Below, piece by piece: positions 248-59,265 of a stretch of 64,000 nucleotides of DNA. The stretch is taken from assembly GCF_001889025.1 (NCBI RefSeq), contig NZ_CP018154.1:603501-667500 (forward strand), read 5' to 3'. Made by a program: the position numbers and the translations under genes. The notes under the pieces were generated by a model, which made no database searches, was not told where the DNA came from, and saw only the letters and a program-made list of their open reading frames with translations. Each line of letters opens with the position of its first letter. Positions within the stretch are counted from its first letter, which is position 1. Origin of the DNA: Sphingorhabdus lutea. Its GTDB lineage: Bacteria > Pseudomonadota > Alphaproteobacteria > Sphingomonadales > Sphingomonadaceae.

Positions 248-1651
248 ATGGCTGAATTTGATTTTGATGTTTTGGTAATTGGTGCTGGCCCTGGCGGATA
301 TGTGGCCGCCATTCGCGCCGCACAATTGGGGCTTAAAACAGCCTGCGCTGAAAGCCGCGAAACATTGGGCGGAACTTGCCTAAACGTTGGTTGTATCCCG
401 TCAAAGGCGTTGCTTCATGCATCGGAATTATATGAAGAAGCACATAGCGGCGCATTGGCAAAATTTGGCGTTAATGTTGGCAAAACCACCCTAGACCTTG
501 ACCAAATGCATGCTGAAAAAGTGAAAGCTGTAGGCGAATTAACCGGCGGTATTGAATTTTTGTTTAAGAAAAATAAGGTTGAATGGTTAAAAGGTTTGGC
601 CAGCTTTACCAGCGCAAATAGTGTTGAGGTAAATGGCAAAACCGTCACTGCAAAAAATATCATCATTGCCACCGGTTCATCGGTTGCGCCGCTGCCTGGT
701 GTAGAGGTGGATAATGAAAAGGCGATTGTGGTTGATAGCACCGGCGCACTTGCACTGCCCAAAGTGCCCGACCATTTGGTTGTCATTGGCGGCGGTGTCA
801 TTGGTTTGGAACTTGGCAGCGTATGGCGCCGTTTGGGCGCAAAGGTTACCGTGATTGAATATTTGGACCAAATCCTGCCCGGCATGGATAAGGATGTGCG
901 TAAAGATGGCGCACGCATTTTCAAGAAACAAGGTTTTGATATTAAAACCAGTACCAAAGTTACTGGCGTATCGGTAAAGGGCAAAAAAGCCACCGTTACG
1001 GTTGAACCCGCCGCTGGCGGTGATGTCACGAATATTGAGGCCGACGCCGTTTTGGTATGTATTGGCCGCCGCCCGAATACCAGCGGGTTGAATGTAGAGG
1101 CTGCAGGCCTGTCCACCAATGATCGCGGATTGATTGAGGTTGATCACCGCATGCAAACCAAGGTAAAGAGCGTGTGGGCCATTGGCGATGTGACCCCTGG
1201 TTTAATGCTGGCCCACCGCGCAGAAGATGAAGGCATTGCTGTGGCGGAAAATATTGCTGGTCAAACCGGAATCGTCAATCATGATATTATTCCAGGCGTG
1301 GTATACACCCATCCTGAAATGGCAGGCGTTGGCAAAACCGAAGATGAATTAAGCGCCGCTGGTGTGGCCATTAAAATTGGTAAATTCCCCTTTGCTGGGA
1401 ACAGCCGTGCCAAGGCAAACCGCGATACTGAAGGATTTGTAAAAGTAATTTCGGATGCCAATAGCGACCGTGTTTTGGGCGTGCATATTATTTCATCGCT
1501 TGCCGGAACTTTAATCGCACAGGCCGCACAGGCAATGGAATTTGGCGCAACGTCGGAAGATATTGCCTATACATGTCATGCCCACCCGACACATAGCGAG
1601 GCATTGAAAGAGGCCGCCATGGCGGTTCAGGGCAAACCAATTCATATGTAA
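248..1651 (+). CDS. lpdA: dihydrolipoyl dehydrogenase (E3)
   Basis: Flavoprotein disulfide reductase of 467 residues that reoxidises dihydrolipoyl groups of the 2-oxo acid dehydrogenase complexes using NAD+. The FAD-binding G-A-G-P-G-G lies at residues 12-17, the redox-active disulfide at Cys44 and Cys49 (G-G-T-C-L-N-V-G-C), a second Rossmann motif G-G-G-V-I-G-L-E-L-G in the middle, and the catalytic His446/Glu451 pair (H-P-T-x-x-E) near the C terminus. A longer frame begins at 191, but the ATG at 248 places the FAD motif at the family position. Its closeness to the upstream gene suggests the 3' end of an odh/suc operon whose E1 and E2 genes would be outside the window. Confidence 0.97.
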   Translation: MAEFDFDVLVIGAGPGGYVAAIRAAQLGLKTACAESRETLGGTCLNVGCIPSKALLHASELYEEAHSGALAKFGVNVGKTTLDLDQMHAEKVKAVGELTGGIEFLFKKNKVEWLKGLASFTSANSVEVNGKTVTAKNIIIATGSSVAPLPGVEVDNEKAIVVDSTGALALPKVPDHLVVIGGGVIGLELGSVWRRLGAKVTVIEYLDQILPGMDKDVRKDGARIFKKQGFDIKTSTKVTGVSVKGKKATVTVEPAAGGDVTNIEADAVLVCIGRRPNTSGLNVEAAGLSTNDRGLIEVDHRMQTKVKSVWAIGDVTPGLMLAHRAEDEGIAVAENIAGQTGIVNHDIIPGVVYTHPEMAGVGKTEDELSAAGVAIKIGKFPFAGNSRAKANRDTEGFVKVISDANSDRVLGVHIISSLAGTLIAQAAQAMEFGATSEDIAYTCHAHPTHSEALKEAAMAVQGKPIHM

Positions 1652-1722
1652 TTAATCTATTCACCGTGCATATATCATCCTATCATTATATAGTCATATA
1701 AGGCGGTATATAGGTGGTGGAT

Positions 1723-2349
1723 ATGATTTTCATTGAAAATATAAATGCTGATATGGTGGAACGTGCTTTGCATCTTATCGCAGTGTTGGTTTTTGCCTTG
1801 TCGGGGGCATTGGCCGCGGCGTGGAATAAGCAAACATTTGTCACATTTGCCTTTTTTGCGATCTTAACCGGTGTGGGCGGCGGCACGGTGCGCGATATTT
1901 TAATTGGCGCACCGGTTTTTTGGGTGAATGATTCACTTATCATCGCATTATGTATTTTTGCCGCGCTGCTAATTTGGTTTGTTCCGGCCAAATTTATGCC
2001 CGCCCGCGCGCTGGATTGGTGTGATGCGCTGGGCATGGCGGCATATTCGGTCTTTGGCGCGGGTAAGGCGCTGGCCTATGGTGTTAGCCCGATTCCCGCT
2101 ATTATCATGGGGATAATTACCGCCTGTATTGGCGGGGTGATACGCGATATTCTGGCGGGTGAACCATCCATTATCATGCGGCCCGAAATTTATGTGTCGG
2201 CATCGGCACTGGCGGCGGCATTATTTGTTGTGATATTTCTGTGGGGCGTGCCGATTATGTTTGCGGCGGCAATTGGCGCATCGGCAGGTTTCATATTACG
2301 CGCGGCTGCGATACAATATGGATTGGGCCTGCCAACATATAAAAAATAG
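1723..2349 (+). CDS. TRIC (UPF0126) family cation channel-like membrane protein
   Basis: A 208-residue polytopic membrane protein with about seven hydrophobic segments. Two glycine-rich repeats, G-G-G-T-V-R-D-I-L near residue 52 and G-G-V-I-R-D-I-L-A-G near residue 140, are the signature of the duplicated UPF0126/TRIC fold, whose bacterial members form trimeric cation channels. The ATG at 1723 has AGGTGG five bases upstream; a GTG at 1714 behind AGGCGG is an equally possible start adding three residues. Substrate and physiological role are not evident. It stands alone, after lpdA on the same strand. Confidence 0.85.
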   Translation: MIFIENINADMVERALHLIAVLVFALSGALAAAWNKQTFVTFAFFAILTGVGGGTVRDILIGAPVFWVNDSLIIALCIFAALLIWFVPAKFMPARALDWCDALGMAAYSVFGAGKALAYGVSPIPAIIMGIITACIGGVIRDILAGEPSIIMRPEIYVSASALAAALFVVIFLWGVPIMFAAAIGASAGFILRAAAIQYGLGLPTYKK

Positions 2350-2421
2350 GATAAGCGGCCATTAAATGTTTGTTATTTTAATTTAGTATAATATTATAAA
2401 GGCATATTAAGGGGGATAATA

Positions 2422-3225
2422 ATGCGTTTTATTAATCTGTTGTCCATCATATTTGCGGTGATTATATCGGCCTCCGCGCCCCATGCCTTTGCCCAATTTA
2501 ACCCAAATATAGAGATTAAAGAGCCGCAAAATAGCCTTGAGGAAAAGGCGATGCAGGTTTCCCAAATGCAATATCCAAGGGAACAAGTTGTCGCGCAGGC
2601 AACAAATGCAATTTTGAGCGCAAGCAAAATAGCAATCGAAAATAACCCAACCATGGCGGCATTAAATAAACAATATCCTGGCATCATTGATGAAATTATC
2701 AAATCTTCATTACCAATAATAACAAAAGCATATGAGGATAAGCTGCCTTTGCTTTGGGCAAATAATAATGCGCTATATATGAATAATTTTACCGAAAATG
2801 ATTTGGATATCATTATTACATTTAACCAAAGTGCGACCGGTATAAAATATAAACAACTTTTATTGAATAATATCGATTTGACTGATGCGATTAAATCCGC
2901 ATCATCTGGAGTTGAAGAAGGATTTGGCGCAAATGCAAAAAAAGAAAGCGATAAAGCGTTAAATAATAGCGTCAATAAAACAAATCGGCAAATGACGCAG
3001 ACCGAACTGGTGGAGGTTTTTAAATTTGAAAATTCCAATACCGGTTCAAAACTGGGATTGATAACCGAAGATGTGAAAAATATGGTCGGGCAATGGGATT
3101 TTTATTTCCCCGATAATTTTCAACAAATGGTTGCTAATGTGCAGCGCAAGGCCGCCACAAAATTTATGGAAGAAGCCGATGCAAAGGCCGAAGCGGCTGC
3201 GTCTAATGAAGATGGCGCCGAATAA
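2422..3225 (+). CDS. exported DUF2059-like protein
   Basis: A 267-residue protein with an N-terminal signal peptide ending near A-H-A-F-A-Q (residue ~25). The middle contains L-Y-M-N-N-F-T-E-N-D-L-D-I-I-I-T-F, the helical hallmark of DUF2059 proteins ('aYaenFteeEL..li.FY.S'), followed by a 'S-A-T-G-I-K' turn. The C-terminal tail is rich in Ala and Glu. The family is periplasmic and of unknown biochemical function. There is a GGGGGAT Shine-Dalgarno-like stretch before the ATG. The gene is flanked by a convergent leuD and appears monocistronic. Confidence 0.7.
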   Translation: MRFINLLSIIFAVIISASAPHAFAQFNPNIEIKEPQNSLEEKAMQVSQMQYPREQVVAQATNAILSASKIAIENNPTMAALNKQYPGIIDEIIKSSLPIITKAYEDKLPLLWANNNALYMNNFTENDLDIIITFNQSATGIKYKQLLLNNIDLTDAIKSASSGVEEGFGANAKKESDKALNNSVNKTNRQMTQTELVEVFKFENSNTGSKLGLITEDVKNMVGQWDFYFPDNFQQMVANVQRKAATKFMEEADAKAEAAASNEDGAE

Positions 3226-3249
3226 ATTCTATTATAAATTAGCGAGCGA

Positions 3250-3849
3250 TTATAATGCCAGCGGCCTTGGCTGCTGCCATGATTTTTGTTTGTCTAACCC
3301 ATCTTCATAGGTGGCAATTTCTGTGTCATTGGCCATGGTTAGGCCAATTTCGTCCAAGCCATTGACCAGGCAATATTTGCGAAATGGGTCAATTTCAAAC
3401 GGAAATCGGTCTTGAAACTCGCTGGTCACCATTTGGTTTTCGACATCAATATAAATATTGTCGCTTTGCGCCACATCAATCAAACGATCAATGGCGGATT
3501 GTGGTAATTCCACGGTTAACAAGCCATTTTTAAACGCATTTCCCGAAAAAATATCGGAAAAACTGGGCGCAATAACCGCCTCTATTCCCATATCGGCCAA
3601 TGCCCATGCGGCATGTTCGCGGCTTGATCCACAGCCAAAATTATCGCCCGCGATAAGTATTTTTGCGCCCTTATATAGAGGATTGTCAAAAATATTGCCC
3701 TCTTGCGCCCGAACGCTTTCAAACGCCCCCTTGGACAGGCCTTCGCGGGAAATAGTTTTTAACCATTTGGCCGGAATGATAATATCGGTATCGACATTCT
3801 TCCGACCCCATGGATAGGCTTTTCCAGAAATATCCTGCAATTTTTTCAT
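3250..3849 (-). CDS. leuD: 3-isopropylmalate dehydratase, small subunit
   Basis: A 199-residue swivel-domain subunit of isopropylmalate isomerase (leucine biosynthesis), which pairs with LeuC. Visible family motifs are '[13 protein letters not shown]' near the N terminus and '[13 protein letters not shown]' in the middle, the substrate-recognition loop. The length is normal for the family. It is the last gene of leuC / 65-residue membrane gene / leuD on the minus strand, convergent with the DUF2059-like gene. Confidence 0.97.
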
Positions 3850-42254: not shown

Positions 42255-42973
42255 GCGCCGCGCAGCCTTTATCAGCCAAGAATAGGCAATTGATGCAACG
42301 CAATGGCTTTACCTTGGTTGAGTTGTTGGTGGCATTATTTATTTTTGGGTTAATATCCAGCGCTGCGGTAATGTTGCTGCGCAGCGCATCGGATAGCCAG
42401 TTGCAGTTAAAAAATAAATTGAGCATGCAGGGTAATATCACCCGATTATCAAATTTATTAGAAGCCGATTTGGCACAGGCCGTGGCCCGCCCATCCCGTA
42501 ATGCAAATGGCTCAAAAATGGCGGCCTTTTTAACACAAGATAGGCCCGGTAGTTTATTTGCATTTTCGCGCACCGGACTTGGCATGGGGGGCGATGATGC
42601 AGATGGTTTTGCCAGCAGCATAGGCAGGGTTGAATATGAATTGGTCAATCGGCAATTTATTCGCAAATCCACGCTTTATATTGATGGAGGGCAAAGCAAT
42701 CCGCCTGCTATTTTATTGGATGATGTTGACCAAATATTGGTAAAATATCGCGATCAAAAGGGACAATGGCGCGATGATTGGAATGTGGATGATAATATGC
42801 AAATGCCGCGCGCCATAGAAGTGAATATAATGCAAAAAAATATTGCGCCATTACAGTTAATTTTAATTGTCGGCAGCCAAAGCCGCAACATACCAATGGC
42901 CGAAACCGAAAATAGCACAGAGGAAAATAGCACAGAGGAAAATAGCACAGAGGAAAATGTCAATGAAAGTTGA
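42251..42973 (+). CDS. gspJ: minor pseudopilin J
   Basis: A 240-residue pseudopilin with leader N-G and F-T-L-V-E-L-L-V-A-L-F-I-F-G-L. GTG start overlapping gspI by four bases. The C terminus carries three tandem E-N-S-T-E copies encoded by a 15-base repeat that runs almost into the gspK start, so the tail is probably flexible and variable in length between strains. Confidence 0.93.
   Translation: MSAAQPLSAKNRQLMQRNGFTLVELLVALFIFGLISSAAVMLLRSASDSQLQLKNKLSMQGNITRLSNLLEADLAQAVARPSRNANGSKMAAFLTQDRPGSLFAFSRTGLGMGGDDADGFASSIGRVEYELVNRQFIRKSTLYIDGGQSNPPAILLDDVDQILVKYRDQKGQWRDDWNVDDNMQMPRAIEVNIMQKNIAPLQLILIVGSQSRNIPMAETENSTEENSTEENSTEENVNES
42908..42952 (+). repeat. three 15-base tandem repeats at the gspJ-gspK junction
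   Basis: GAAAATAGCACAGAG occurs three times in a row, with a fourth partial copy that becomes GAAAATGT. It encodes E-N-S-T-E units of GspJ, and each unit contains an AGAGG-like ribosome-binding core, the last one placed before gspK. Confidence 0.85.
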
Positions 42974-47206: not shown

Positions 47207-47286
47207 CGTATATATGGATTACCCTATTGCGGCATGTTGATTGCAGGACGGCACAAGGAATATTATCTAATATAGGGGAAATTATA

Positions 47287-47331
47287 TGGTGCTGCTGGGG
47301 AGGATTGAACTCCCGACCTCGTCATTACCAA
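47287..47331 (-). other. left attachment site: displaced 3' half of tRNA-Thr
   Basis: 45 bases matching the 3' end of the tRNA-Thr at 59191-59235 with four mismatches. The last 18 (CGACCTCGTCATTACCAA) are identical and are the likely crossover core in the anticodon arm. The four differences fall in the T-stem and neighbouring pair and keep pairing (GGGAG/CTCCC here). It marks the left end of the integrated element; the remainder of 47207-47565 holds a TTTTCCTAC / GTAGGAAAA inverted repeat at 47448-47479 but no gene. Confidence 0.85.
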
Positions 47332-47565: not shown

Positions 47566-48528
47566 TCAAAACCAGAAACGCACGCCTATCACGTAATTTG
47601 TAACGCTGGCATCTTCACCATCAGCTCGGGCAAAATCCTTGCTCCCGCCTAATTTCCATTCCTGTTCTACACCGATATAAGGCGCAAATTCGCGTTCGAT
47701 CTCGTACCGCAGACGTAGGCCCAATTCTGCACTATCGATACCGGATCCAATGTCTAGTTCAGCAATATCCTGCGCAGAAAAATTCATTTCTGCGCGTGGT
47801 TGTAGAATCAGCCTGTCGGTGATTCGTTGGTCATATTCAGCCTCAATGCGTCCGGTAAGATCGCCCTTGTCAGACAAAAATGCAGCAGCATCAACCTCGA
47901 GCATATAAGGGACGAGGCCTTGGACACCGACTACGCCATAGGTGCGGTCAGGCCCGGTAAAATCTTGTCGTATACCAACTTGCAAGTCAAAAAACGGAGC
48001 GATAGCGCGGCTGTATAGCGCCTGAATTTCAGCCTGTTCTGCGCTTTCACCGAATGATCCTTCGCCCTCACTCTTGAACCAGAACTTATCAAGATCGCCG
48101 CCATAATAACCCTGCACGTCCCATAGATATCCGTCACCGCCTTCTCGGGCACGATATTCCAGTCTGTCGCCCTGGAACCAGAATATCTGCATATCGCCAT
48201 GTTCTTCGTAAAGCGCCTTGCGTGATGGCCGCATCGCCTCTGCGCCCCAAATGGCATCGGCGGCTCTTGCAGGCCCGCTGGTTGAGTTTGGCGGTCGTGC
48301 GGGCGAGGCCGCAGCTTTGGGCGCAGAATGTTCCAGCGTGCTGTGGTCCATTTGGCTATGATCCATCTTGCTATGATCCATAACGCTATGGTCAATCGCA
48401 GGAGGAGCAGGCTTTGTCTCTTCGGCTTGGTGCGCGGAGTGATCACCATGCTGGCTATGATCCTGCGCCGACAAAGGTGCGGATGCGGTCGAGGCCGCCG
48501 CTAAGAATAGACAAATTTTGTGCATCAT
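47566..48528 (-). CDS. copB: outer-membrane copper resistance protein CopB
   Basis: A 320-residue CopB-type beta-barrel protein. Signal peptide, then a His/Met/Asp-rich zone with repeated M-D-H-S units (residues ~25-75) for copper binding, then the conserved barrel (W-F-Q-G-D-R-L-E-Y-R, F-W-F-K-S-E-G-E-G-S-F-G, F-D-L-Q-V-G-I-R-Q-D-F). It starts four bases inside the copA stop. Sequesters or exports periplasmic copper. Confidence 0.92.
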   Translation of the reverse strand: MMHKICLFLAAASTASAPLSAQDHSQHGDHSAHQAEETKPAPPAIDHSVMDHSKMDHSQMDHSTLEHSAPKAAASPARPPNSTSGPARAADAIWGAEAMRPSRKALYEEHGDMQIFWFQGDRLEYRAREGGDGYLWDVQGYYGGDLDKFWFKSEGEGSFGESAEQAEIQALYSRAIAPFFDLQVGIRQDFTGPDRTYGVVGVQGLVPYMLEVDAAAFLSDKGDLTGRIEAEYDQRITDRLILQPRAEMNFSAQDIAELDIGSGIDSAELGLRLRYEIEREFAPYIGVEQEWKLGGSKDFARADGEDASVTNYVIGVRFWF

Positions 48529-50402
48529 GCGTCCTTTGGGAAAGCGACGCTAACGGTCTGCATCATGCCCGCATGCATATGATACAGCAGATGACAATGA
48601 AAAGCCCAGTCACCCGGCTCGTCGGTCGTCACATCAAACGTGGCGCTGCTGCCGGGTTGAACAATGACCGTGTGCTTTTTTGGCTGATGATGGCCTTGGC
48701 CATTCACCACTTCAAAAAACATCCCGTGCAAATGAATGGGGTGCGCCATCATCGTGTTATTGACCAGTTTCACCCGTACGCGCTCATCATATGCAAAGCG
48801 GATTGGCTCATCTCCAACGGCGCTGAATTTTTTGCCGTCAAATGACCACATATAGCGCTCCATATTTCCAGTGAGATGCAGTTCCATCTCCCGGTCCGGT
48901 TTGCGCTTCCCATGATCCATTTCTAGCGACTTGAGCATTCGATAATTGAGAACACGGTGCGGGACTTTATCAAGGCCAAGGCCAGGATAACCGGTGCGAT
49001 CCGGCGCATTCATGGCAACCATATCAATGCCAGGGCCGACCTTCACGTCAGCAGGCAGTTTCGACGTATCGCGCATGTTCATGCCGGACATGTCCATTTG
49101 CATCTCTGGCTTGCCGGTGTCTGCAACAGGCATTGGGTCGCCCATTGCACCATGACCCATTTTGGAATGGTCCATGGTTGAATGGTCCATCGTGCCATGA
49201 TCCATTTTAGGAGCGGCGTCTTTGCCATGTGCACTATGGTCCATCGCGCCCATGTCGCCGTGATCCATATTCCCGTGATCCATATTCCCGTGATCCATGC
49301 CCATATCGGCCATTGTGAGCAGCGGAGCGTCGCGCAGAGCCGGAAAACCCGCCTTCATTCCGGGTTGAGATGTCAATGACGCTTGCGCCATTCCGGACCG
49401 GTCCATTGCCTCTGCCGCAATCGCAAATGCCCCTGGCTTGTCTGGGGTGACGACTACATCATAGGTTTCAGCAACGCCGATCTGCAGTTCGTCCACTTCA
49501 ACGGGCTGCACGTTCAAACCATCAGCTTGCACGACAGTCATTGGCAAGCCTGGCAATCGGATATTGAAGAATGTCATGGCGCTGCCATTGATGATGCGCA
49601 GCCGAACCCGTTCACTGGGCTTGAACGGGAGCTCAAGGCCATCTTCAGGGCCGTGGCCATTGATCAGGTAAGTATAAGTAGGTGCAGAAACGTCGGAAAT
49701 GTCGGTCGGCATCATCCGCATTCGCCCCCACATCAGGCGCTCTTGTGCGCTCATCGCGTATTCGTCTGTTGCAGATGTCTTATTGCGGTTGAAATATCCT
49801 TCGCCGCTCTTCAGCTTTTTCATGATCGTGTGCGGGTGCATCGGCGTAAATTCGCTCAGCAATATGATATGCTCGCGGTCATATTCGACTGGATCCGGCC
49901 CGGCAGGGTCAACGATAATCGGGCCATAATGTCCAGCCTGTTCCTGCAATCCGCTGTGACTGTGCCACCAATATGTTCCCGATTGACGCGGGGTCAGTGG
50001 AACCTGGAAATGACCATCGGGCTTGATACCGGGAAAGCTGATGCCAGGAACGCCATCAAACTGGAACGGCAACAATATGCCGTGCCAATGAATGGAGCTG
50101 TCCTCATCCAGCATATTGTGAATATTCAGGAGCGTTTTCTGACCCTCCTTCAACCTTATCAGAGGGCCGGGAACAGTGCCGTTCACTGCAATAGCGTGAC
50201 CAGAGCGCCGCCCGGTTGCAAAATGGCCGCTGCCGATATGCAGATCGATTTTTGAGCCGGACAGTTCATCCATGCCATTACGGATATGTGCTGCCATCGC
50301 CCCTTTTGACCAAGCGGGCATCGAAATTGCAGATGCCCCAGCCAATGCTGCCATGCTGCCGATTAAGCCGCGACGGGAAACTGTTATATTGCTTTTTGTC
50401 AT
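48525..50402 (-). CDS. copA: periplasmic multicopper oxidase CopA
   Basis: About 625 residues. A Tat signal (S-R-R-G-L-I-G) is followed by three cupredoxin domains with the type 2/3 copper ligands H-W-H-G, H-S-H, H-P-I-H-L-H-G and H-C-H-L-L-Y-H near the ends. A Met/His-rich insert with many M-D-H-x-N/S-M-D-H units (~residues 375-430) binds Cu(I). Start chosen at the ATG giving the Tat motif at the N terminus. Oxidises periplasmic Cu(I). Divergent from the CsoR-like gene, with a shared operator. Confidence 0.95.
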   Translation of the reverse strand: MTKSNITVSRRGLIGSMAALAGASAISMPAWSKGAMAAHIRNGMDELSGSKIDLHIGSGHFATGRRSGHAIAVNGTVPGPLIRLKEGQKTLLNIHNMLDEDSSIHWHGILLPFQFDGVPGISFPGIKPDGHFQVPLTPRQSGTYWWHSHSGLQEQAGHYGPIIVDPAGPDPVEYDREHIILLSEFTPMHPHTIMKKLKSGEGYFNRNKTSATDEYAMSAQERLMWGRMRMMPTDISDVSAPTYTYLINGHGPEDGLELPFKPSERVRLRIINGSAMTFFNIRLPGLPMTVVQADGLNVQPVEVDELQIGVAETYDVVVTPDKPGAFAIAAEAMDRSGMAQASLTSQPGMKAGFPALRDAPLLTMADMGMDHGNMDHGNMDHGDMGAMDHSAHGKDAAPKMDHGTMDHSTMDHSKMGHGAMGDPMPVADTGKPEMQMDMSGMNMRDTSKLPADVKVGPGIDMVAMNAPDRTGYPGLGLDKVPHRVLNYRMLKSLEMDHGKRKPDREMELHLTGNMERYMWSFDGKKFSAVGDEPIRFAYDERVRVKLVNNTMMAHPIHLHGMFFEVVNGQGHHQPKKHTVIVQPGSSATFDVTTDEPGDWAFHCHLLYHMHAGMMQTVSVAFPKDA

Positions 50403-50414
50403 AGACGGGTTTAT

Positions 50415-50431
50415 ATACCCCCTATAGGTAT
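50415..50431. promoter_or_regulatory. CsoR-type operator between copA and csoR
   Basis: ATACC-N7-GGTAT inverted repeat with a C-rich spacer, between the divergent copA and regulator genes. It matches the 5-7-5 architecture of CsoR/RcnR sites. A second copy lies in front of the downstream DUF305 gene. Confidence 0.7.
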
Positions 50432-50450
50432 TTGGCAAGAGGTTCAGGCG

Positions 50451-50726
50451 ATGGCCGGAAAAAGCTCAGAAAAGAAAATCAACCGGCTCAAACGCATTGA
50501 GGGCCAAGTGCGCGGGATATCGCGGATGGTTGAGGAAGATCGGTACTGCATCGACATCCTCCATCAAATTCAGGCCGTTCGTGCCGCCATAACCAAGGTT
50601 GAGAGCGAGGTTTTGAAGGACCATGCTGCCTGCTGCGTTGCCGAGGCCATCGCGAGCGGTGATGCCGATGAGCAGCGTGAAAAGTTTAGCGAGCTAGTAG
50701 ATCTATTTGAAAAAGCGAAGCGCTGA
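50451..50726 (+). CDS. CsoR/RcnR family copper-sensing repressor
   Basis: A 91-residue four-helix regulator. N-terminal R-L-K-R-I-E-G-Q-V-R-G-I and the metal ligand set Cys33, His58 and Cys62 (C-I-D-I-L; D-H-A-A-C-C-V) match CsoR's Cu(I) site. It should release the two nearby operators on copper binding. Divergent from copA and upstream of the DUF305 operon. Confidence 0.9.
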   Translation: MAGKSSEKKINRLKRIEGQVRGISRMVEEDRYCIDILHQIQAVRAAITKVESEVLKDHAACCVAEAIASGDADEQREKFSELVDLFEKAKR

Positions 50727-50754
50727 CCCTCATAGTTTCGAGGTTGCCGCACCT

Positions 50755-50771
50755 ATACCCCCAGACAGTAT
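50755..50771. promoter_or_regulatory. second CsoR-type operator, before the DUF305 gene
   Basis: ATACC-N7-AGTAT, one mismatch from the first site, 23 bases before the DUF305 start codon. Both copies share TATACCCCC. It suggests that copA-copB and the DUF305-glutaredoxin operon are controlled together. Confidence 0.65.
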
Positions 50772-50793
50772 CAGGATTTGAGGAGGATTTTTC

Positions 50794-51306
50794 ATGGGAA
50801 AATATACACGATTTCTGGTAATGATATCGGTGTCGACAGCGGTGATGTTCGGCCTGATGTATTTGAACACTTACGCTCTGGAGCATATTTTTTATAGCGA
50901 AACGCGAACATGGATGGCGCTGTACATGGGAGCTGCGATGGCCGTTGTCATGCTGCTTTTCATGCTCGGTATGTATGGTGAAAAAAAGAAAAACACGATG
51001 ATTTTGGGCGGTGCGGCGGTCATTTTTGCAGGGTCGCTTTATCTTGTCCGCTCGCAAGACACGATTTCGGATCAGGCGTGGCAGAAGGCGATGATCCCGC
51101 ACCACTCCATCGCCATTCTGACCAGTGAGCGTGCGAATATCGAAGATCAACGAGTTCGCGAGCTTGCCGACAAAATCATCAAGGCCCAACGCCGTGAAAT
51201 CAAAGAGATGAAGTGGCTGATTGATGATATCCGGAAGAACGGAAAGGCCACAACGGCAGCACAAGCAAATGCGCGCCCTGTTCCCGAATTTGAAGGCGAG
51301 CTTTAA
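50794..51306 (+). CDS. membrane-anchored DUF305 protein
   Basis: A 170-residue protein with three N-terminal hydrophobic helices (residues ~8-95) and a DUF305 segment M-I-P-H-H-S-I-A-I-L near residue 105, followed by L-A-D-K-I-I-K-A-Q-R-R-E-I. The paired His and Met residues fit copper binding, which is inferred from the family. Ends at the base where the glutaredoxin fusion begins. Confidence 0.85.
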   Translation: MGKYTRFLVMISVSTAVMFGLMYLNTYALEHIFYSETRTWMALYMGAAMAVVMLLFMLGMYGEKKKNTMILGGAAVIFAGSLYLVRSQDTISDQAWQKAMIPHHSIAILTSERANIEDQRVRELADKIIKAQRREIKEMKWLIDDIRKNGKATTAAQANARPVPEFEGEL

Positions 51307-52055
51307 TGGCTAAAACCGCAAAATTATATCGCATGGTGATGGACCAGCATATTTGTCCTTATGGTCTGAAGTCGAAATATCTGCTGGAGAGAGAGGGTTT
51401 CAAGGTCGAGGACCATCACCTGACCACGCGCGAAGAAACCGATGCGTTTAAGGAACAGCATGATGTAAAAACCACGCCGCAGACATTTATCGACGGAAAG
51501 CGGATTGGCGGACATGACGATCTGCGTATCTATCTGGGTAAGGACAAACCCGAAGAGCAGCAGAGCGACATGAGTTACCAGCCGGTAATTGCTTTGTTCG
51601 CTATGATGTTCCTGATGGCACTGGGCGCAGCGTTCGTTGCCACCGGCAATATCCTGTCTGTGCTCACCGCCGAATGGTTTGTGGCGTTCAGCATGTGCGG
51701 GCTCGCCTATTTGAAGCTGCGCGATGTGGAAAGTTTTTCCAGCATGTTTCTGAACTATGACCTGCTCGCAAAACGCTGGGTGCCTTATGCCTATCTCTAT
51801 CCGTTTGGCGAGGGGCTGGCGGGGCTTTTGATGATCGCAGGCGTTGCCATGTGGCTCGCGATACCGGTTGCGCTGTTTATCGGAACGATTGGCGGCATAT
51901 CGGTATTCTATGCGGTCTATGTCCAGAAACGCGAGCTGAAATGCGCCTGCGTTGGCGGGGACAGCAATGTGCCCTTGGGCTTTATCTCGCTCACCGAGAA
52001 TATCTTCATGGTCGGCATGGCGATATGGATGCTTGTTAAGATGACCGGGATCTAA
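51306..52055 (+). CDS. glutaredoxin-MauE family fusion protein
   Basis: A 249-residue protein: a glutaredoxin domain (residues ~1-80; active site C-P-Y-G with a single Cys, and T-P-Q-T-F-I-D-G-K-R-I-G-G) joined to a MauE/DoxX-like four-helix membrane domain (residues ~95-249). The C-x-x-C second Cys is missing, so it is monothiol. It may carry out thiol chemistry at the inner membrane linked to copper stress; the partner is unknown. Overlaps the DUF305 gene by one base. Confidence 0.85.
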   Translation: MAKTAKLYRMVMDQHICPYGLKSKYLLEREGFKVEDHHLTTREETDAFKEQHDVKTTPQTFIDGKRIGGHDDLRIYLGKDKPEEQQSDMSYQPVIALFAMMFLMALGAAFVATGNILSVLTAEWFVAFSMCGLAYLKLRDVESFSSMFLNYDLLAKRWVPYAYLYPFGEGLAGLLMIAGVAMWLAIPVALFIGTIGGISVFYAVYVQKRELKCACVGGDSNVPLGFISLTENIFMVGMAIWMLVKMTGI

Positions 52056-52136: not shown

Positions 52137-53300
52137 TTAAGCGTCTTTCGACCAATTCACATCCAACTTAGCCGCTCCCGCTTCCGCAGCTGCCATGAGG
52201 GTATCATTGGCGAGATGCGAGTAGCGGGTTGTGCTGTTGATGCTGACATGACCGATCATCTTGCCGACCGTGTAAAGGTCGATACCGGCATTTATCATGA
52301 AACTGGCCGCGCTGTGCCGTAGATCATGAATGTGCAGGTCTTCCAGTCCAGCCAGCTTTCGTGCTTCCTGCCACGCTTTCTTGATATCCACATAGGGTTT
52401 CAAGGTTTGCGGATTGGGAAGCAGGTAAGGACAGCCATCAAACTTCGGTAACTGCTTGATGATATCCACAGCGGGCTGTGACAACGGCACATGGCGACCT
52501 CGTCCGTTCTTGGTCATAGGAAGCTTCCAGGATCGCTGTTCCAGATCAATGTGCCGCCATTCCGCATTGAGCAACTCTGACTTGCGTGCGCCGGTCAACA
52601 GCAACAGGCCTACAATGTGCTTAAGCTGCGGGTTGGATGAACACTCGCAGGCCAGCCGGAGCCGTTCCGCTTCTTCGCTCGTCAGGTAACGCTCCCGTGC
52701 ATTGTTGAACTTGGCACGAGGAATGTCTTTGACCGGATTATGATCAAAAAGGTTCCACTGCATCGCCAGCGCGAATGACCGGCTGAACATCGTGCGTATC
52801 TTTTCAACGCTTGCGGGCGCTAAACCGTCCTTGCGTTTATCAGACAGCCACATTGCCACGTCCTGCTGTTTTATCTCGTCCAGCCGTTTGTTGCCCCAGC
52901 GCGGGATGACATGGTTCTCGATGATGCGCCGCGTGCTGTCATAGCTGCGCTGATAGGTCGAAGCATGGTCAAGATGCTGAACAGCCAGCTCTGAATACAG
53001 CGGGATGGCTTTCTTTTCGGCTTTTGCACCGGCTGGATCGCCGCCAAGCACGGCTTCGCTACGTAAATGTTGAGCACGTTTCTTCGCTTGCTCAAAGGTG
53101 ATCTCGCCATAAGCCGCAATCTTGATCTGGCGCTGGCGACCGTTCTGGTCATGATACCGCTGGTAGTAAGTCTTGCCGCCGGTCGCACGGCATTCAAGTA
53201 TGAAGCCGGGAATGGCTTCGGAGTAGTAGTCGGTTTTCTTCTTGCCGTCTTCGCATTGAGCGGTGAGACAGAAGGCGGCGTCCAATTTTGCTTTGGGCAT
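52137..53300 (-). CDS. tyrosine recombinase (integrase) of the element
   Basis: A 387-residue P4-type integrase: DUF4102-like N-terminal arm, core-binding and catalytic domains. Catalytic residues by position: Arg239 (G-A-R-K-S-E), Lys264 (T-K-N-G-R-G-R), His325 and Arg328 (H-D-L-R-H), His351, and Tyr360 (T-R-Y-S-H-L). Intact and likely active. It would direct insertion at the tRNA-Thr. The site lies about 6 kb from the tRNA, unlike the usual adjacent placement. No gene is visible in 53301-53515. Confidence 0.95.
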   Translation of the reverse strand: MPKAKLDAAFCLTAQCEDGKKKTDYYSEAIPGFILECRATGGKTYYQRYHDQNGRQRQIKIAAYGEITFEQAKKRAQHLRSEAVLGGDPAGAKAEKKAIPLYSELAVQHLDHASTYQRSYDSTRRIIENHVIPRWGNKRLDEIKQQDVAMWLSDKRKDGLAPASVEKIRTMFSRSFALAMQWNLFDHNPVKDIPRAKFNNARERYLTSEEAERLRLACECSSNPQLKHIVGLLLLTGARKSELLNAEWRHIDLEQRSWKLPMTKNGRGRHVPLSQPAVDIIKQLPKFDGCPYLLPNPQTLKPYVDIKKAWQEARKLAGLEDLHIHDLRHSAASFMINAGIDLYTVGKMIGHVSINSTTRYSHLANDTLMAAAEAGAAKLDVNWSKDA

Positions 53301-53515: not shown

Positions 53516-54691
53516 CTAGCCTTCTGCTGGCTCCGCTTCAGGCTTTTCATGCAGGGAATAGACGTGAGCACCTCGCCCTCGCACGTCAAAATCCCATAGA
53601 TGTTCTTCGGGATTTGGGCCTGAATGCTTAACTAAGACATCCAAGATAGTATTGCGGCTGGCTTTCGTAGCTTTGTTCACGGTAGCAACAATCTTCATCT
53701 TCTTGTCGTTTTTATGCTTTATGGCTGCTCTGATATTATCGATTATATCCTGCTCTTGCATATCTATTTGCACTTCGATGTCGCCAAACTCGGGATCACT
53801 TTCAATGACAGACAGCAGCCGTTGTTCATAGGACAGCCCAAATTCAGAACTGAACTTGAAATGAGTTTCTTCTACGTTGTCGCCTCTGCGTTTCTCATTT
53901 GTGGCTTTGATGAATTTCTCATGCTTTTTAGCTCCGTTGAGGCATTCGAGCATATAGATTGTGTCAAAATCTTCCATCAAATCGCTTGTGCCAGCATGAA
54001 CAGGCTTTCCCTTTGCGTTCAGGTTTTTATTGGTATGTGCCAAGCCGAGAACAGTCCCACCCTTCAATGAGATTTGCCTTGTCAGATCTCCAAATTCCTT
54101 TGATTCCTTTTTGCTCATTAGGTCAAAAAATTTCTTGACCGTATCTATGATTATTAGGGTTCCTTTTGCTGTTCCGTTATTAGCCATCAAGCGCATAGCT
54201 TCGGTAAGCTTTTTGGCTGTGAATTTTTTAAATCCTGGCGTTAATGTGTGGACACCGAGGTCATCCAGTAACCTTGTCTTCTGAGCCATTCCAGAGGCAC
54301 TGTCGTCAGCATTTATGTAGAAGACTTTGTTTCCCTCTATTCTCCTGTCACTAATTGCTTTCATTGTGAGCGATAAAGCCAATAGGGTTTTGCCGGTATT
54401 CGGAGCTGCATACCAGATCGAGGTCTGCCCCTTGAGACATAAATCCCCCAATAACGGAACCTGCTGTTGAGCTTGCTCAGCGAGCTTATTCCCCTCTCCG
54501 ATTAGGGAGTGATCCTCAAGTGGGTTTCTCTGAGCGTTGCAGCTTTCCAGTTTTCCAGTTTCCCCGGCGTTATCGCTAGGAGTCGGGGTTACAGTCTCCT
54601 CAGGTTTTGGCTTGATGTTAATTTTCAGAGCTTTAGCATCTATTGGCGCTGCGGTTTTATCTGCCACGCCGGTTGTCGTTTCATTGTTCAT
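53516..54691 (-). CDS. RepA/RecA-like AAA ATPase of mobile-element type
   Basis: A 391-residue protein. A Pro/Thr-rich N terminus, then a RecA-type fold with Walker A A-P-N-T-G-K-T (residues 96-102), V-F-Y-I-N-A-D-D, and Walker B L-I-I-I-D-T-V near residue 178. The C-terminal region resembles a winged helix. RepA-like helicase ATPases of this type (AAA_25) are found on plasmids and integrative elements and probably serve replication or DNA processing of the element. Confidence 0.78.
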   Translation of the reverse strand: MNNETTTGVADKTAAPIDAKALKINIKPKPEETVTPTPSDNAGETGKLESCNAQRNPLEDHSLIGEGNKLAEQAQQQVPLLGDLCLKGQTSIWYAAPNTGKTLLALSLTMKAISDRRIEGNKVFYINADDSASGMAQKTRLLDDLGVHTLTPGFKKFTAKKLTEAMRLMANNGTAKGTLIIIDTVKKFFDLMSKKESKEFGDLTRQISLKGGTVLGLAHTNKNLNAKGKPVHAGTSDLMEDFDTIYMLECLNGAKKHEKFIKATNEKRRGDNVEETHFKFSSEFGLSYEQRLLSVIESDPEFGDIEVQIDMQEQDIIDNIRAAIKHKNDKKMKIVATVNKATKASRNTILDVLVKHSGPNPEEHLWDFDVRGRGAHVYSLHEKPEAEPAEG

Positions 54692-56498: not shown

Positions 56499-56771
56499 TC
56501 ATATAAGATACTCAATTTCGCGCGTTGACAAACTAGCCTTCATATTGCTCACGTCTGCTATAGCCCGAGAGTAGAAATTAGCATTTGAATTGCTGAATGA
56601 CACAAATTGGGCGGGAAGCGGACATTGGGACGGATGACTTCTAATGGCAGCTACATCCGGAAAGCAGATATCGGCTTGATCTTGGTTCTGAGTTAGGATT
56701 ATGGTCGATGAAAAGTTGATCTTTATTCCCAAGATGTTTGCCTCTGCTGCTTGTGCGGCAGTTATATTCAT
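56499..56771 (-). CDS. hypothetical protein, 90 residues
   Basis: Small protein with L-T-Q-N-Q-D-Q-A-D-I-C-F-P-D and a Ser/Asn-rich C-terminal region. AGGA lies four bases before the ATG. Divergent from the large GHKL-nuclease gene, 79 bases apart; no recognised domain. Could be a small regulator or partner of that gene, but nothing in the sequence says so. Confidence 0.45.
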   Translation of the reverse strand: MNITAAQAAEANILGIKINFSSTIILTQNQDQADICFPDVAAIRSHPSQCPLPAQFVSFSNSNANFYSRAIADVSNMKASLSTREIEYLI

Positions 56772-56850
56772 ATGGTCCTAAAGCGTATTCTTTTGACCAA
56801 GTTAGCTTGCCTCACTATGTTTGCGGTATGTTGGTCGAAAGAAATGAATT

Positions 56851-58791
56851 TTGAGCGATCTTTTTGAAAATACACCTCTTACATATGACCCTCGATTTTT
56901 AGAGGATCATGCCGGTTCGATCATCAAAGACCCCACTACGGCTCTTGTGGAGTTGGTCGCCAACGCATGGGACGCCTATGCAACCCGAGTGGACATTACA
57001 TGGCCCTCAACCGAACAAGCATTCGAGATCAAAGATAACGGCTTGGGAATGACAGAAGAGCAATTGAACGCTCGTTGGAAGCGATTCAACTATAACCGTG
57101 TCAATGAGTTAGGCGAATATACAGACCCACCAGAAGACTTGGAGGGGTATCGCAAACGCCGGGCATTTGGCCGCAATGGAAAGGGGAGGTTTGCAGCCTT
57201 CTGTTTTTCATCCCCGTTCCAAGTTGAAATTGGCAAGGAGGGCATAAAGTGCTCGTTCAGGATGAAAAGGACACCGCTCAAACCGTCGCCGTTTCACATT
57301 AAAAAACTGGCAGAAGAAAAATCAACTTGGCGTGGCTTCAAGATCATCGGTGAAGAAATTCAGCCCGCCGGGATGAGCGCTGATATGGCGCGGTCTGTTC
57401 TTAGCACAAGGTTTTTAACGAACCCAGAGTTTGAAGTTTTCGTTGAAGGTAAGAAGGTCACATTTGAAGATATTCCATCCCACGGGGTAGAAACTATCCA
57501 AGTCCAGATTGATGCAGCAACAACAGTCGAAATGGTTGTTATCGACAGTGAGAAAACGGATCGATCAACCAAACAGCACGGTATTGCGTGGTGGGTAACA
57601 GATCGGCTTGTGGGAGCCTGTGACTGGAAGAATTTTGAAGACCAATCAGTACTTGATGGACGGCGTGAAGAGGCAAAGCGTTATACGTTCATTTTAAAAG
57701 CAGATCACCTAAAACCAGACGTTTTGGCCGATTGGTCTGGCTTCAAACAAGACAGTGAGAGCTGGAACCAAACCCGCAAAGCCTGTGAAGATGCTGTTCG
57801 GTCAAAACTGTTTGAGCTGACTGCGGCAAAAAGAGCTGAGACCAAAAATCAATGGTTGGAAAATCATTCGAGCCTACAGCATACGTTACCAAAGCGCAGC
57901 CAAGAACGCCTTTCTACTGCGCTCGATAATATAATGGAAAAGTGTCCTAGCCTTGGTCCAAACCAAGTTCAGCAGGTCATGGATGTACTGGCGAGTATGG
58001 AACATGCCGAAAGCCAGTATGCCTTGTTGGCCAAGATGCAAAATATGTCACCGGATGACTTCGACAACTGGAATGATATCTTAGATCGCTGGACTACGGA
58101 ACTCGCCAAAGAAGCGTTGGATGAAGTTGAGAAGCGATTGCGAATACTAGCTGAATTATCAAACAAAACAGCAGACAAAACGACAGACGAAGTGCAAGAT
58201 CTCCAGCCACTCTTTGAACGAAGCTTGTGGATTTTCGGCCCGCAGTTTGAGAGCATTGAGTTCACTTCAAACAAAGGGATCACAACAGTGATCCGCGAAC
58301 TGTTTGGTGTTCAGGAGAAGGCCGAGACAATCCGTCCTGATTTTGTGGTTTTGCCGGATAGTTCGATTGGATTCTATTCGCGGCCCAACTATGATGACGA
58401 AGGTGATCAAAATGGCTGTGCTGTCCTCTCAATAGTTGAACTGAAAAAACCCGGTGTTCCGCTTGGCTCTAAGGAGAAAGACCAAGTTTGGAAATATGTG
58501 AAAGCACTTGAGCAACGTGGATACATCAGCCGTTATACCAAAGTTTTTGGCCACGTTTTGGGGGATCAAATCGCGGCAGGTGAAGATGAGCCGCGCAAAG
58601 AATGGTCAGATTCTGTAGTTATTAAGCCATGGCTCTATACAAACTTTATTGCGCAAGGTGAAAAGCGTATGTTCCAGCTTAGAGACAAGCTTGCTGAGGC
58701 TCCATTTATGCAAGAATATTTGACAAGCAAACCGCTTGAAAAGCGGACAGTAGCGCCGCTACAAGGTGATTTATTAAACGGCGGGGGATGA
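56851..58791 (+). CDS. GHKL ATPase fused to a Shedu-like PD-(D/E)XK nuclease
   Basis: A 646-residue protein. N-terminal GHKL (Hsp90/MutL/MORC-like) ATPase: N-box E34-L-V-A-N38-A-W-D41, G1-box D62-N-G-L-G-M, G2-box G107-R-N-G-K-G112. The middle (~150-440) is a transducer-like and helical part. The C terminus (residues ~445-600) has R-S-L-W-I-F-G, P-D497-F-V-V, V-E530-L-K532 and D-Q545-V-W-K-Y, matching the DUF4263/Shedu branch of PD-(D/E)XK nucleases. TTG start (a TGA stop two codons upstream excludes earlier codons). Interpretation as a defence protein is an inference from fold combination and genomic island position. Confidence 0.8.
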   Translation: MSDLFENTPLTYDPRFLEDHAGSIIKDPTTALVELVANAWDAYATRVDITWPSTEQAFEIKDNGLGMTEEQLNARWKRFNYNRVNELGEYTDPPEDLEGYRKRRAFGRNGKGRFAAFCFSSPFQVEIGKEGIKCSFRMKRTPLKPSPFHIKKLAEEKSTWRGFKIIGEEIQPAGMSADMARSVLSTRFLTNPEFEVFVEGKKVTFEDIPSHGVETIQVQIDAATTVEMVVIDSEKTDRSTKQHGIAWWVTDRLVGACDWKNFEDQSVLDGRREEAKRYTFILKADHLKPDVLADWSGFKQDSESWNQTRKACEDAVRSKLFELTAAKRAETKNQWLENHSSLQHTLPKRSQERLSTALDNIMEKCPSLGPNQVQQVMDVLASMEHAESQYALLAKMQNMSPDDFDNWNDILDRWTTELAKEALDEVEKRLRILAELSNKTADKTTDEVQDLQPLFERSLWIFGPQFESIEFTSNKGITTVIRELFGVQEKAETIRPDFVVLPDSSIGFYSRPNYDDEGDQNGCAVLSIVELKKPGVPLGSKEKDQVWKYVKALEQRGYISRYTKVFGHVLGDQIAAGEDEPRKEWSDSVVIKPWLYTNFIAQGEKRMFQLRDKLAEAPFMQEYLTSKPLEKRTVAPLQGDLLNGGG

Positions 58792-59087: not shown

Positions 59088-59190
59088 CAAGCCCGTGTTT
59101 CTAGCCAAAGCACCACCCACGCCATACCCAAGCGCGCATCCACGTTTAAGCACTTCCCGTAGGAAACAGTTTCACACTAAGCTGAAGGAA

Positions 59191-59265
59191 TGGTGCTGCT
59201 AGAGAGAATTGAACTCTCGACCTCGTCATTACCAATGACGCGCTCTACCACTGAGCTACAGCAGC
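59191..59265 (-). tRNA. tRNA-Thr(GGT), integration target of the element
   Basis: A 75-base tRNA with encoded CCA. Acceptor GCTGCTG pairs with (T)AGCAGC; anticodon loop TTGGTAA reads ACC; T-arm GAGAG-TTCAATT-CTCTC. The 3' half differs by four bases from the displaced copy at 47287, with compensating pairs, so the present tRNA carries the element's own 3' half. Confidence 0.95.

Follow-up and report, generated by a model that had tools for sequence, protein, structure and literature searches.

A single gene at positions 56851..58791 (plus strand) of a 64,000-nucleotide stretch of the Sphingorhabdus lutea genome (contig NZ_CP018154.1, positions 603,501 to 667,500; the whole stretch is referred to below as the window) encodes a 646-aa fusion of a GHKL ATPase with a PD-(D/E)XK nuclease, read from a TTG start. 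We consider the product a putative anti-phage nuclease of the paraMORC3 / Shedu type I-D kind, borne as cargo by a tRNA-Thr integrative island and working as a single gene without a methyltransferase, and assign to this reading a rough probability of 0.7. The anti-phage reading is based on the ATPase motifs and nuclease residues taken together with the selection acting on the gene, the absence of a C5-methyltransferase partner, the scattered distribution of relatives, the defence genes around them and the location in an island. Counting against it are a PF14082 (DUF4263) score below the Pfam cut-off, the lack of a Shedu call by PADLOC and the non-defence character of the local neighbours.

Domain anatomy and conservation of the fusion gene

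The frame is open throughout its 646 aa, with an in-frame stop upstream at 56845. Of 8000 candidates scored with phmmer, 1422 proved to be relatives at E≤1e-3, so the ORF is not a chance open frame. Among the 120 matches listed (one of them the protein itself), identity ranges from 45 to 94%, and nearly all cover at least 90% of the length. Residue conservation was assessed in an alignment of 61 sequences, composed of the fusion protein and 60 relatives taken from these 120 matches.

From the Pfam match, the motifs and the profile comparisons we infer an ATPase and a nuclease fold. The GHKL core (approximately residues 20-150; 56908..57300, plus strand) is delimited by the Pfam family HATPase_c_3 (residues 29-141, E 2.5e-14, 53.9 bits against a cut-off of 25) and by invariant columns. 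These comprise E34 and N38 of the N box, D62, G64 and G66 of G1, and G107, N109, G110 and G112 of G2. An S5-like transducer and a middle region are predicted to follow (approximately residues 151-444; 57301..58182, plus strand), with both boundaries and fold provisional. The C-terminal half has no Pfam match above cut-off, and the nuclease domain (approximately residues 445-620; 58183..58710, plus strand) was delimited by motifs and profile comparisons. Its motifs are LWIFG, E467, RPDF with D497, VELK with E530/K532, and Q545xxxY549; D497, K532, Q545 and Y549 are invariant in the 61 aligned sequences, and position 530 is E in the fusion protein and D in some relatives. Overall, these data bear out an earlier note on this DNA, which had recognised an Hsp90/MORC-like ATPase with intact N, G1 and G2 boxes and a C-terminal PD-(D/E)XK nuclease in the same gene; the residue numbers it gave (D62, E530, K532) are also correct.

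Compared with the Tritonibacter plasmid and Pelagivirga scaffold copies, the gene shows dN 0.138 and pS 0.83, synonymous sites being saturated so that a dN/dS ratio is not computable. By region, dN is about 0.14 for residues 1-300, 0.20 for residues 301-445 and 0.088 for residues 446-646, and the conservation score of residues 301-445 is 0.58 versus 0.65-0.70 elsewhere in the protein. From the low dN at saturated synonymous sites and from its regional values, we read that purifying selection acts on the gene and that its middle region changes fastest.

Known proteins of the same architecture

The closest full-length kin found for the fusion protein is the paraMORC3/BbrUII-HgiDII group. According to the available part of the 2008 paper of Iyer, Abhiman and Aravind (PMC2292703), paraMORC3 is defined by a GHKL domain, an S5 domain and a C-terminal RE-fold nuclease, and a stand-alone subset devoid of conserved neighbours was already noted there. 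The fusion protein carries a GHKL domain with the conserved ATP-binding motifs; its N-terminal part aligns with the paraMORC3/BbrUII profile over 344 columns (hhalign, E 2e-21) that span the predicted S5 region. The E-D-ExK series of paraMORC3 corresponds to E467 (a tentative assignment), D497, E/D530 and K532, within a C-terminal part that is predicted to have the restriction fold and matches at E 5e-6. Judged from the accessible text of the 2008 paper, which is computational, no architectural difference was found between paraMORC3 and the fusion protein.

A second and more recent example is VcSduA, reported in 2025 as a single-gene GHKL-DUF4263 protein of Vibrio cholerae VSP-II WASA. In the portion of this report available to us (PMC12137116), VcSduA is placed in Shedu type I-D after Gu et al. 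2025, protects at every MOI tested, acts on lytic phages and loses its anti-phage activity with either E27A or K557A. As far as that text describes it, VcSduA shares with the fusion protein the single-gene format, the N-terminal GHKL ATPase, the C-terminal PD-(D/E)XK nuclease, the residence in a genomic island and the independence of neighbouring genes. On the same textual basis, the two differ in the spacing of the GHKL glutamate and the nuclease lysine (530 residues between E27 and K557 in VcSduA, 498 between E34 and K532 here) and in DUF4263, which is reported for VcSduA and is sub-threshold in the fusion protein. None of the 361 proteins collected has E27 together with K557 within an ExK/DxK motif, and VcSduA is compared here by its description. 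By analogy, the fusion protein probably works like VcSduA.

With paraMORC3 (2008) and VcSduA (2025) at hand, the architecture has to be regarded as already known. The suggestion of the earlier note that an ATP-gated GHKL clamp would represent a distinct design is thus abandoned, the same plan being present in both, as far as the parts of these papers available show.

MutL and Hsp90 are housekeeping proteins. Their likeness to the fusion protein is confined to the GHKL ATPase in the N-terminal part. Of the comparisons with MORC, Hsp90 and Shedu that had been proposed for this gene, the one with Shedu upheld homology to SduA (with pooled profiles, see below), and the one with Hsp90 held for the ATPase part only.

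A solo clade separate from BbrUII/HgiDII

The best NCBIfam match of the fusion protein is the BbrUII/HgiDII model NF050001, and the BbrUII/HgiDII enzymes (including the 'ParaMORC3' of Escherichia phage PhiR44_1) have the same domain order. The fusion protein could accordingly be the restriction enzyme of a BbrUII/HgiDII-like pair with its methyltransferase elsewhere in the genome, an alternative we regard as unlikely. In its favour, the shared domain order belongs to enzymes that adjoin a C5-methyltransferase, which lies inside the 5-kb flank in 22/22 BbrUII-type viral loci (including near-copies, hence not 22 independent events). Moreover, methyltransferase places of other types (one N6 and three N6/N4) occur in the host genome beyond the limits of the window, which leaves room for an unlinked adenine methyltransferase.

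Several results stand on the other side. First, no C5-methyltransferase was detected in the host genome by a search that was positive in 10/14 control genomes. Second, only 1/87 loci of the closer relatives has a C5-methyltransferase nearby (L109); these 87 loci comprise 80 kept of 98 in genome records, 5 of 11 viral and 2 plasmid ones, and have a median length of 21.8 kb versus 12.0 kb for the BbrUII-type loci. Third, the match to NF050001 involves the N-terminal part only and reaches 88 bits against a cut-off of 550, and in a tree of 30 rows the 12 rows of closer relatives and 15 BbrUII-type rows fall on opposite sides of a branch with 100/100 support (the long branches of L013, L016 and MutL were left out of the interpretation, and L166 is a 353-codon open piece). 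The fusion gene is therefore a member of a scattered "solo" clade, separate from the BbrUII/HgiDII restriction enzymes. In the available part of the 2008 analysis, a reply to a reviewer states that for most such species no solo R-M system was found (PMC2292703).

Two further GHKL-nuclease fusions came to our attention. One, in another genome of the class, has as its neighbour a frame that looks C5-methyltransferase-like by eye (L013:107-1330 and 1216-3264, both on the minus strand). A genome of the same genus (G314) has a second GHKL-nuclease fusion of 688 aa from another subfamily (L016:61-2127), with an EFVWNALD box, TWIFG and VELKRP as motifs, adjoining a transposase-like ORF as judged by eye.

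Comparison with Shedu nucleases

The earlier note had ascribed DUF4263 features to the C-terminal domain. The motifs indeed stand in register with SduA, and membership at the Pfam cut-off did not hold. No match to DUF4263 was obtained with hmmscan. When PF14082 was run against the entire 2.53-Mb host genome at E≤10, it hit one place, the C-terminus of the fusion gene (window 58186-58497), with 12.6 bits and E 0.146, below the cut-off of 27 bits. Among the 61 aligned sequences, SduA_C gives sub-threshold matches to 15 (E≤1, best 0.0053) and HSDR_N_2, another nuclease family, to 7; PF14082 is precomputed in 11 of the 120 BbrUII-type relatives listed, and the L013 fusion is a better SduA_C match (E 3e-5). 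None of the Shedu models of PADLOC 2.0.0 matched the fusion protein, whose matches were to REase_II models (44 and 27 bits), plus three of lower score. With the Pfam Shedu score not reached, we file the protein as paraMORC3-type.

Profile-profile comparisons, in which each E-value applies to a single comparison, extend this picture. As Shedu anchors we used two proteins matching PDB 8ps4 and 8ti8, the SduA profile being built from relatives of the 8ti8-matching anchor. The C-terminal part of the solo clade matched canonical SduA at E 0.0028, with WIFG, PDF and VELK in register, and that of the BbrUII type at E 0.011; the solo clade matched the E. coli-type Shedu L007 at E 0.078. Reversed controls of these clade-level comparisons gave 0.5-0.55, and a reversed C-part against BbrUII gave 0.019. 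Pooling the GHKL-linked nucleases (61 + 36 rows, L013 and L016) lowered the E-value against canonical SduA to 5e-7 over 142 columns. Since L013 alone matches PF14082, the comparison was repeated without it, and upon removal of L013 and six PF14082-bearing BbrUII-type rows the value was 4e-6. Controls for the pooled profiles (a reversed profile and an unrelated protein) fell at 0.4-0.7, and at 0.65-0.69 in the reduced-pool run.

Likeness to canonical SduA is thus firm only with pooled profiles. Overall, these sequence comparisons support homology between the nuclease domain and canonical SduA, and the domain may be of the SduA type itself or of a cousin PD-(D/E)XK family, the unrelated-protein control being a 250-aa family that has no PDB match and is not a nuclease. 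The canonical proteins (8ti8, 8ps4) share the nuclease motifs in register (WIFG, PDF/GDF, VELK/VEIK); in contrast to the 646-aa fusion protein, they are 382 and 411 residues long, and Pfam lists no GHKL domain among those examined.

Distribution and genomic neighbourhoods of relatives

The solo clade spans Proteobacteria to Verrucomicrobia, Planctomycetes and one archaeal bin. It occurs in alpha-, beta- and gammaproteobacteria, Verrucomicrobia, Phycisphaerae and single Marinimicrobia and Methanoperedens bins, many of the sources being metagenome bins that may be mis-assigned. No full-length copy of the fusion gene was found in 36 other genomes of the genus, and the top score among 288 other genomes of the class was 67 bits, over profile positions 25-205.

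An inspection of neighbouring genes, one of the checks put forward in the earlier note, showed the surroundings of these relatives to be rich in defence genes. The nearest neighbours of 100 aa or more, 142 proteins drawn from 71/87 solo loci, match 247 PADLOC models at E≤1e-8 versus 4 models (three of them MADS) for a comparison set of 47 ordinary window genes; model redundancy and near-copy neighbours (L004, L026) mean that such counts are not numbers of systems. The matches include GajA of Gabija (4 proteins), SduA (3), LmuB (3) and also AbiEii, and the Pfam family Mrr_cat is present in 4 of the 142 neighbours. The model mad3 was set aside because it also matches ordinary genes.

These observations also bear on whether the protein could be a MutL-like DNA-repair enzyme recruited from such systems. 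In the accessible text of the 2008 paper, versions in non-RM contexts are speculated to have been recruited to DNA repair (PMC2292703), and the GHKL part does resemble MutL in sequence searches. The sparse and scattered distribution and the defence-rich neighbours of the relatives argue against it, as does a separate MutL-like protein of the host genome (at C1:282777, recognised by eye), and we consider this role highly improbable.

As to possible partners, a shared partner gene was rejected as the largest neighbour clusters reach 9/87 loci. With no neighbour family in more than 9/87 loci, the fusion gene works alone or its partners are optional. Proximity to a tRNA was likewise discarded as a family trait, a tRNA or tmRNA being present in the flank of 10 of the 60 loci scanned (of 85).

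Five of the 87 loci share a conserved 250-aa gene whose first 1 to 4 bases overlap the 3' end of the homologue (L041:11950-12699, L044:11947-12699, L048:11947-12696, L051:11938-12687 and L052:11923-12669), and the pair is perhaps a two-gene variant with coupled translation. The product of the 250-aa gene recalls, by eye, an abortive-infection (Abi_C-like) protein, with no PDB match; a shorter piece related to it is present in L064.

The tRNA-Thr island

As the earlier note had proposed, the fusion gene resides in a tRNA-anchored island with an attachment site. The integration site is a tRNA-Thr (GGT) gene (59191..59265, minus strand), whose 3' end is duplicated by a 46-nt attachment repeat with one copy within the intact tRNA (59190..59235) and a distal copy at 47286..47331, the two differing by 4 mismatches. 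The island is 11.9 kb long, and the fusion gene ends 400 bp from the tRNA-Thr 3' end. In at least 19/40 other genomes of the genus, the tRNA-Thr end matches the distal copy without a mismatch over 45-47 nt; it is thus the distal copy that has the version common to the relatives, and the intact tRNA ends in a version unlike theirs. By eye, two of the differences form a compensating pair in the T stem, a third falls in the T loop and the fourth changes an acceptor G-C to G-U.

Apart from the fusion gene and small ORFs, the island contains a tyrosine integrase (52137..53300, minus strand; Phage_integrase E 9e-31, phrog_1 E 1e-69), an AAA_25 ATPase gene (53516..54691, minus strand) and copper-resistance cargo (47566..52055: CopB, a multicopper oxidase, DUF305, glutaredoxin/MauE and a 91-aa ORF). 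The 91-aa ORF resembles a CsoR-type repressor by eye. One integrative element would thereby carry metal resistance together with probable defence. A small divergent ORF upstream of the fusion gene (56499..56771, minus strand; 90 aa, no family match), which the earlier note had pointed out as a flanking gene, does exist and is not conserved: at E≤1e-3 it was found in none of 116 loci except two stretches of the same genome. We therefore rejected it as a partner, and it is probably not part of the system.

PADLOC returned no matches for the island neighbours (the integrase, the AAA_25 gene and the copper-resistance genes). The anti-phage role suggested earlier stands as probable.

The same tRNA was assessed in 40 other genomes of the genus. 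Four of them (G303, G306, G309 and G314) have two copies of the tRNA-Thr end on one contig, as at occupied integration sites, and in G310 the second copy is on another contig. At the four sites (L141-L144, corresponding to G309, G306, G314 and G303), 44 of the 45 ORFs of at least 100 aa were scanned, the G314 stretch being partial, and matched 32 PADLOC models at E≤1e-8. One of the sites has a match to a UG13-type defence reverse transcriptase model (E 9e-220), which indicates that the tRNA-Thr site takes other defence cargo in a relative.

The location in a mobile element raises the alternative that the same biochemistry has another target, the fusion protein guarding the island against competing elements (plasmid or superinfection exclusion). 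The occurrence of relatives on plasmids and viral contigs, the integrative island around the fusion gene and integration at tRNA-Thr elsewhere in the genus are in line with this possibility. On the other hand, lytic phages are the target of VcSduA, the single tested example of this architecture, according to the available text (PMC12137116), and we hold the island-guarding function to be improbable.

Elsewhere in the window, a 21-nt repeat occurs in three exact copies spaced by 15 nt (42908-42958), within an ORF located a few genes away from that of a type IV leader peptidase.

Proposed mechanism and implications

For the preferred reading, an anti-phage nuclease, the following sequence of events can be envisaged. 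The protein would dimerise via its GHKL domains, and the binding of ATP would close the ATPase gate. The S5 and middle regions may act together as a clamp around DNA or a signal made by the phage, the clamp, the sensor part and the trigger all being conjectural. Closure would bring the C-terminal PD-(D/E)XK domains onto DNA, which they would cut, and cutting would destroy the invading genome without the need of a methylation mark, self DNA presumably being spared.

A broader and more tentative proposal is that a single ATPase-nuclease scaffold supports two immune modes, one with a methyltransferase providing the self mark (BbrUII/HgiDII) and the other with none (solo). The fast-evolving middle clamp may have been turned into a sensor of some DNA state or protein specific to phages. 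We regard this as possible, at less than even odds. If true, the solo and BbrUII/HgiDII clades would amount to a natural experiment in which a restriction enzyme turns to sparing self without methylation.

For the family as a whole, a large clade that is called as Shedu by neither PADLOC 2.0.0 nor Pfam would join a type with one tested example found in the literature searched. The existence of this solo clade beside a methyltransferase-paired sister group would make it testable how GHKL-gated nucleases choose foreign DNA.
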